Of a stretch of DNA of 41,634 nucleotides, positions 3,413 to 15,167 are shown one piece after another. The translations under genes were made by a program, and so were the position numbers. The notes under the pieces are model-generated. The model saw only the letters and a program-made list of their open reading frames with translations, was not told the origin of the DNA and made no database searches. This DNA is from Anaerolineae bacterium (GTDB lineage: Bacteria; Chloroflexota; Anaerolineae; Aggregatilineales; Phototrophicaceae), in NCBI GenBank assembly GCA_016788435.1, contig JAEURB010000346.1:1-41634 (forward strand), given 5' to 3'. The first letter of the stretch is position 1, and the number at the start of each line of letters is the position of its first letter.

Positions 3413-3484
3413 TGACCCCGGCAGGATTCGAACCTGCGACCAGGTGCTTAAAAGGCACTTGCGCTGCCGCTGCGCTACGGGGCC
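3413..3484 (-). tRNA. tRNA-Lys (anticodon TTT)
   Basis: The reverse strand folds into a cloverleaf of 72 nucleotides plus discriminator A. The acceptor stem is GGCCCCG with CGGGGTC (one G-T pair), the D stem is GCGC/GCGC, and the anticodon loop CTTTTAA places TTT at positions 34-36. The T arm is GCAGG-TTCGAAT-CCTGC. The top of the anticodon stem has one A-C mismatch. The 3' CCA is not encoded, so it must be added afterwards. Confidence 0.95.
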
Positions 3485-5772: not shown

Positions 5773-6177
5773 TAACCTGAGTTACCAATAGCAATTCTCA
5801 CCCCTCAAGCAGTGGGATGTGCTCGAACGAAACCTCACCGCCGGCCCCTCTCCATTCTGGAGAGGGGAGAAGGACGGGCGGTTCACGAACCGCCCCTACT
5901 GTTAGCAAGCCTGTGAAAGAGCGAACAAGCGAACAGAATCAAAATCGCGAACATCGCCTGAGGGAAGAATCTAGTGAACAGTGAACAGAACAGCGAACAA
6001 CAGGCGCATCTCACCGCAGGCCAGTACCTTTCCAGCATAGATCAGGCCGGGGGTTGGCAGGAGAACGCCGGGTGGACTGAAATGCCGCAAAGCGACAGCG
6101 GTACGCGGGCGTAACGGGCGATAGCCGGGTGCTGCGATAGAGTGGCTGCCACAGGACGCTATCCGAAACTCAGGTTA
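5773..6177. repeat. 405-bp intergenic element, copy C of the pentamer-array repeat, with terminal inverted repeats
   Basis: The ends are imperfect 20-bp inverted repeats (5773-5792 and 6158-6177, 16 of 20 matching: TAACCTGAGTT, four variable bases, ATAGC). Inside are two perfect 9-bp hairpins (CCCCTCTCC/GGAGAGGGG near 5845-5867, GGGCGGTTC/GAACCGCCC near 5876-5895). A GAACA array follows (starts 5923, 5931, 5949, 5976, 5983, 5988, 5995), then a block at about 6033-6105 shared with copies at 13 and 14.7 kb. There is no coding capacity. It resembles a non-autonomous mobile element. The remainder of the 5523-6435 gap holds the ATPase promoter and another repeat at 6229-6388. Confidence 0.65.
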
Positions 6178-13029: not shown

Positions 13030-13310
13030 GCTGGCCTGCAGAACCTCACCCCCGGGCCCCCTATCCGCACGCGGCGAGGGGGAGAAAAGCGCGGGGCGGG
13101 GCCGGAACGGTGGGAAGCGAACAGCGAACAAACGAACAGAATCAAACTCGCGAACATGGACTGAGGGAAGAATGCAGTGAACAGTGAACAGATCAGCGAA
13201 CATCGGATGGTCCATGCGGCAAGCGGACAGTCTCAGCATAGGACGATTGGGCGCGCTTGAGGCGAACGTGTGGTGGACCGGATGGACACGAAGCGGGCAG
13301 GTGTGGGACA
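13030..13310. repeat. Pentamer-array intergenic repeat, copy A
   Basis: The 633-base gap 12843-13475 has no credible gene. It holds copy A of the element also found at 5.8-6.1 kb and 14.7-15.0 kb. It has a CTCACCCC...GAGGGGG module near 13046-13084, then GAACA words starting at 13119, 13126, 13134, 13152, 13179, 13186 and 13198. A block at about 13235-13303 (CAGCATAGGACGATTGGGC to AAGCGGGCAGG) follows. The element ends about 165 bases before the M20 peptidase start. The boundaries are approximate. Confidence 0.65.
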
Positions 13311-13475
13311 TCCATCGGATCACAACCACCTACCCGTGGCCAAGACTTATGGATTACCGGCGTCTTCGACAGGTGACTTGGCAACCGTCTGCCCCAGACC
13401 TGCCTCGCGTTGCCGCCCGCCGGTTCCCGCGCAATAATCGGCCGCAGATTGCTCCGTTCAGCCATCGAGGCCCGT

Positions 13476-14689: not shown

Positions 14690-15040
14690 GGCAACCTCAC
14701 CCCCTGCCCCCTCTCCAAATTGGCGAGCGGGAACGACGCGCGGGGGCGTGCGAACGGGTGTACGCAATCGGGAAAGCGCAGGGCGGTGCAGGTGGATGTG
14801 GTGTTATTAGCAAACCTGTGAAAGTGTGGACAAGTGGACAGAATCAAAATAGTGGACAGATGCTGAGAGAAGTAGTTGCTGGACAACTGGACAGAATAGT
14901 GGACAACCAAGCACACAAGGGGCTGGTTTTGCAGGCGGCCCGGCCGTACGGCAGCCTTCATCATAGACGAGTTGGGCTTGTTTGGGGTGAATGTATGGTG
15001 GACAGGATGGACGCAAAGCGGGCAGGCGCGAGACGGCAGC
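14690..15040. repeat. Pentamer-array intergenic repeat, copy B (GGACA version)
   Basis: The gap 14625-15186 has no gene. It contains a CTCACCCCCTGCCCCCTCTCC module (from about 14697). A segment nearly identical to copy C follows (GTTATTAGCAAACCTGTGAAAG), then the array with GGACA words at 14828, 14836, 14854, 14881, 14889 and 14901. The shared 3' block lies at about 14960-15031 (TGGTGGACAGGATGGACGC). Array spacing equals that of copies A and C to within one base, but every word is GGACA instead of GAACA. Confidence 0.65.
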
Positions 15041-15167
15041 CTGAACGCGACAACCCGCCCCTGGCAGGGAGCCGGGTGTAGGAATAGCCTGCGGCCGCAA
15101 CTGATGAGACTTCATGACAGCCCTCAACACGCCGCAGGGCGGTCTGCACCGGCACAGTGAGGTTAGG

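Follow-up and report, generated by a model that had tools for sequence, protein, structure and literature searches.

At least 107 copies of an intergenic repeat are present in a single Anaerolineae MAG, each built around six short words that lie on one strand at fixed distances, and the letters of these words change together within an array. Six or more word dialects coexist in this one genome. The family is most likely a dispersed, non-coding, MITE-like intergenic repeat private to a single Anaerolineae species. We tentatively favour the view, drawn from sequence comparison, that the words are sites for a sequence-specific DNA-binding protein whose specificity has repeatedly shifted, and that selection may have moved the words of an array together.

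Three of the copies lie in the window, that is, the whole stretch of 41,634 nucleotides that was analysed. The sequence-only reading had described them as three related intergenic arrays of pentamers; they are real, and they belong to this larger family. Their features are as follows.

5774..6176, + strand: copy C, complete 403-bp MITE-like element with TIRs (TIR search)
5774..5793, + strand: copy C, left TIR (AACCTGAGTTACCAATAGCA), 20 bp (TIR search)
5900..6003, + strand: copy C, conserved core from TTAG... to word 6 (core profile match, 87 bits)
5919..5999, + strand: copy C, word array, dialect YGA-ACA
5923, 5931, 5949, 5976, 5983, 5995, + strand: copy C, pentamer starts
6157..6176, - strand: copy C, right TIR (CGCTATCCGAAACTCAGGTT on the + strand), 20 bp (TIR search)
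13119..13202, + strand: copy A, word array, dialect YGA-ACA, seven words (core profile match 13120-13205, 56 bits)
13126, 13134, 13152, 13179, 13186, 13198, + strand: copy A, pentamer starts, with a seventh GAACA at 13119
13203..13342, + strand: copy A, 3' module (module alignment)
13327-13342: copy A, degenerate type II terminal repeat (CACCTACCCGTGGCCA) at the end of the 3' module (TIR resemblance by eye)
14805..14907, + strand: copy B, conserved core, TGG-ACA in six of six words (core profile match, 97 bits)
14828, 14836, 14854, 14881, 14889, 14901, + strand: copy B, pentamer starts
14908..15067, + strand: copy B, 3' module (module alignment)
15051-15067: copy B, degenerate type II terminal repeat (CAACCCGCCCCTGGCAG) at the end of the 3' module (TIR resemblance by eye)

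When the positions were re-read, the spacing first described for the six words held exactly, with start-to-start distances of 8, 18, 27, 7 and 12 in copies C and A and of 8, 18, 27, 8 and 12 in copy B, as did the assignment of GAACA to every word of A and C and of GGACA to every word of B. The seventh GAACA of copy A marks the start of the interval originally singled out, and this copy is without the 5' part of the core (TTAG...); an extra GAACA in copy C at 5988 (AGAACAG) is fortuitous. Such clustering is confined to the arrays: on the array strand of the 41.6-kb window G[AG]ACA occurs on average 0.21 times per 85 bases, only arrays A, B and C reach five or more within 85 bases, and the reverse strand never holds more than three. 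The pentamers are present as they were given, but the true unit is wider, an octamer in which five letters (wxyzR) co-vary before ACA, so that a spacing of eight bases means abutting copies.

As BLAST queries against their own genome (a MAG of 3.87 Mb in 505 contigs, 91% complete), copies C and B returned 42 and 40 matches, and a search of the same genome with a sequence-only core profile of 106 positions, built from 32 copies, gave 107 matches at E values up to 0.01. We extracted and aligned 105 cores; the word statistics come from the 96 copies with six readable slots. The layout is fixed throughout the family as W W -10- W -20- W W -4- W, where W is the octamer wxyzR-ACA, always on one strand. 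The core begins with TTAGCRA..CCTGTKAMA and continues as W W GAATCNAAA.. W ..CTGAGGGAAGAA.. W W GAAT W; the first two words (w1 and w2) abut, and so do w4 and w5 when they stand eight apart. A 3' module of ~100 bp, found in several related versions, follows the core, and the whole repeat extends from about -110 to +290 around it. Nearly all copies (103 of 105) lie outside called genes. The neighbouring genes are convergent at 27 copies, divergent at 14 and tandem at 41, with no preferred orientation, and on this absence of an orientation bias to genes a promoter, leader or terminator was rejected.

That the words of an array change together had been proposed from the three window copies, and across the family the effect goes far beyond what spacers or relatedness predict. 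Agreement of the yzR letters between slots was 0.515 in the 96 copies, compared with 0.214 +/- 0.009 after shuffling each slot among copies. As a control for relatedness, we used a tree from spacer columns only, which provided 48 independent close pairs; in these sister pairs 84 slot pairs had changed alike, against 7.5 +/- 2.6 when slots were shuffled among pairs. The concerted zone covers letters -4 to 0 (kappa.29,.27,.35,.47 and.70), with values near zero at -5 and from +4 on, and positions +1 to +3 (ACA) are nearly invariant. The AC after R is ~98% conserved, and the core spacers differ at ~20%. Where core spacers differ by 7%, y differs at 28%, AC at ~1% and the 3' module at 21%; the words change at about the rate of the 3' module, with spacers and AC held. 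Because the rate at y is close to that of the adjacent 3' module, speed alone is no demonstration of positive selection.

The dialects CGG, TGG, AGG, GGG, GAG and YGA are all present in this genome, together with the rarer TTGG. Strand-specific deamination was considered and rejected, since y takes all four letters and deamination cannot explain all dialects. The expectation that words would always be uniform within an element did not survive the comparison: one yzR triplet fills all six slots in only 17 of the 96 copies, although at least five words are alike in 46 of 96 when CGA and TGA are pooled. With copies gathered genome-wide and sorted by word, as had been recommended, random mixing within arrays was not seen; the mixed copies are partly switched. 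Agreement within these is highest among the four inner words, and CGG is the commonest form at the outer positions w1 and w6.

We propose that the core is a platform of six same-strand octamers, each of which would be read by a putative trans-acting, sequence-specific protein. The ACA end might then be a contact that stays the same, with the changeable part of the specificity in the four or five letters that precede it. If the specificity of the protein, or the paralogue in charge, were to change, selection on active copies could shift several words to the new letters, leaving spacers and layout unchanged, and old dialects would survive in older copies. The platform may serve the element's own spread or its control. 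The sharp five-letter limit of the concerted zone counts for such a reader. Counting against it are the many mixed copies and the partial concert of w and x, which copying could also give; moreover, with the dialects coexisting, a single protein of a single specificity could not serve every copy, and either relic copies or paralogues must be assumed.

Of the two causes originally put forward, a factor that demands one word per element fits better than the mutual copying of words, and neither is proven. Copying remains the main rival, and we regard it as unlikely rather than negligible: slippage or short gene-conversion tracts would copy one word over others within an array, without any reader. 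Words do recombine. The stretch between words has been lost at G000:C391:2599-2648 and C80:8056-8110, which points to recombination between words, and C472:11190, C227 and C324 have each gained one word. In addition, w4 and w5 are the most alike pair of slots (0.70 observed vs 0.19 expected). However, copying between words should spread into the flanks and peak at abutting words. Bases 3' of a changed word remain slot-specific, matching the same slot of the sister at 0.68 and other slots of the same array at 0.31, and the abutting w1-w2 (0.52) are no more alike than the distant w2-w4 (0.56). The edge of the concerted zone is sharp, with no common anchor upstream. At four composite loci, C142 (L027), C127 (L028), C420 (L113) and C52 (L122), a GAG array is followed ~130 bp on by a YGA array, and the neighbours keep their unlike dialects. 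Some GAG arrays, such as that of C225, have only GAGACA in common, with w and x differing from word to word, and C314 differs from C66 by what are nearly single G-to-A substitutions in four of the words, most adjacent letters being unchanged. Together, the slot-specific flanks, the unremarkable w1-w2 and the unlike adjacent dialects favour parallel change at recognised letters, and hence a reader. Some room for copying is left by the letters w and x, which do not discriminate between copying and parallel change (where a slot has changed, their agreement is 0.57 with the other slots of that array and 0.51 with the sister's same slot), and by the five copies with word insertions or deletions.

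Somewhat less likely again is that the dialects arose only once or twice in a source element, and that module exchange mimics many switches. Dialect does follow the spacer tree, with 33 changes compared with 54 after shuffling, where 33 is a maximum: the tree was built from few columns, and the copies are mosaics, so that some may be misplaced and the number of switches inflated. The mosaic nature of the copies is seen in the combination of both terminal-repeat types and several 3' modules with the same dialects. Yet for each of the six or more dialects, four to six words must still have switched together at least once, and two pairs of near-identical cores, C317/C239 and C314/C66, each differ in four words. 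It is improbable, in our judgement, that the words are asymmetric sites of a modification enzyme of changing specificity, with the constant A in RACA modified, although the recognition sites of Type IIL (MmeI-like), Type III and BREX enzymes are short, asymmetric and variable in specificity. Two N6/N4 methyltransferase matches are present in the genome, but that number does not correspond to six or more dialects, the words are neither clearly depleted nor enriched outside arrays, and the MmeI-type target recognition domain (PF20466) was not found in the 91%-complete MAG, on which ground Type IIL sites were rejected. An artefact of assembly or chance is highly improbable and already largely refuted. 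The MAG is fragmented, and some copies lie at contig ends or on duplicate contigs; against this, ~100 copies occupy distinct intergenic contexts, matches reach E 1e-28, and shuffles never attain the observed agreement.

Several other functions were considered and rejected. A structured RNA element is contradicted by the lack of consensus pairs and of any Rfam match to the arrays: no conserved pairs were predicted on the core alignment, and the 3' module stayed within its null. At the gathering threshold, Rfam matches the window once, at a tRNA gene (3413-3484, - strand). For a cis guide or anti-word, a complementary word was looked for in the element and none was found. The best 30 recurrent ORF matches near the arrays appeared to be the repeat itself in translation, so that among these no gene carried with the arrays was found. 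Ten common octamers occur near expectation in ~205 kb outside arrays, and a DNA-uptake signal was rejected for want of clear word enrichment there.

The ends of the repeat bear on its mobility. Type I copies are bounded by AACCTGAGTTTCGGATAGCA and its complement, for which a search returned 32 sites at up to 3 mismatches, against 0 for a control pattern. Both ends were found in nine copies, including copy C of the window, and such copies are about 380-650 bp long; TIRs were not found in every copy. By eye, a possible target-site duplication matches at 4 of 4 bases in C280, C66 and C301 and at 3 of 4 in C31, C172 and window copy C, and is absent in C220. Type II ends, TGGCAGGGGTAGGTTTT, occur on other array copies, on small elements of ~175 bp and on a complete IS of about 1.24 kb (L204 1-1239; G000:C332), which has ends CTGTCAGGGGTAGGTATT and a DDE_Tnp_1 transposase. 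The Y(2)R(3)E(6)K spacing of this transposase is presumably that of the IS4 family. No autonomous partner with type I ends was found in this genome. Type I ends accompany copies of every dialect, and since all dialects carry the same terminal repeats, the enzyme that cuts these ends is probably not the word reader. At L207 (G000:C402:16900-17500), the left end of a type I element is retained together with a portion of the 3' module, and the whole array is absent. Type I-like ends without arrays are also present in the same-genus genomes G062 and G063. Three G062 contigs, C135, C200 and C231 (L290, L292 and L293), break off just within an end of this kind, a pattern suggestive of a multi-copy element that failed to assemble; further same-genus cases are L291, L294 and L295.

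Beyond this genome, the core profile with permissive filters gave nothing convincing in 14 same-genus genomes. Two weak matches (E 0.03 and 0.12), L142 (about 1501-1574) and L143, were taken as chance, as all they have in common is a short stretch in an apparent upstream region. Both of these genomes carry GTGAAAAAGTGGACAACTGAAA in a similar upstream region, a sequence not unlike the beginning of the repeat core. Under stricter filters, which lose weak matches, there were none in 153 other genomes of the order or in about 395 others drawn from the class. One exact pattern over the conserved spacers had no match in 84,980 GTDB genomes (r220 contigs) or in IMG/VR, and copy C had none among plasmids and phages. 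The closest guaA relatives belong to Anaerolineae.

Parts of this architecture have parallels elsewhere. Plasmid iterons are directly repeated sites of one sequence in an origin, read by a cognate Rep initiator. The arrays likewise consist of directly repeated sites of the same sequence; unlike iterons, they number ~100 chromosomal copies, and no initiator gene recurs beside them among the best 30 ORF matches. Prokaryotic MITEs are as a rule under 500 bp, with TIRs, no gene and many intergenic copies (PMC10969869). The array repeat is similarly short, non-coding and intergenic, but it holds six oriented octamers that change in concert, and its dialects have common TIRs. Closer in having internal repeated units is BrickBuilt, a MITE of Porphyromonas gingivalis that contains a minisatellite (PMC4596501); it differs from the array repeat, in which short words stand at fixed, irregular spacing between homologous spacers and not head to tail. 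The DUS dialects of Neisseriaceae also combine a constant core with variable letters in short words, and they have a cognate receptor, ComP, thousands of copies per genome and dialects that separate species (PMC3630211, PMC3868556). The array dialects, by contrast, coexist in one genome, form six-word arrays and show no clear enrichment outside them. Eukaryotic hAT and CACTA transposons have subterminal repeats with several short transposase-binding motifs (PMC4763223, PMC10368747). The array repeat also has several short motifs within a transposon-like element, but its six-word array is central and on one strand, and the variation of the array is independent of that of the terminal repeats.

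The coevolution of a protein with its many sites is usually deduced by comparing species. Among the ~100 copies of this single genome, arrays of six sites have switched completely, in part or in a mixed fashion, and the family is a natural record of stepwise change in a multi-site recognition code. It is possible, though doubtful, that the coexisting dialects represent a multi-site key rewritten in concert, either through selection imposed by a fast-changing reader or through a process that alters every word of an array.

At 5840-5885 the window also contains another kind of repeat, CCTCACCCC(C)GGCCCCTCTCC, which has a hairpin; it occurs beside many array copies and also elsewhere in the genome.
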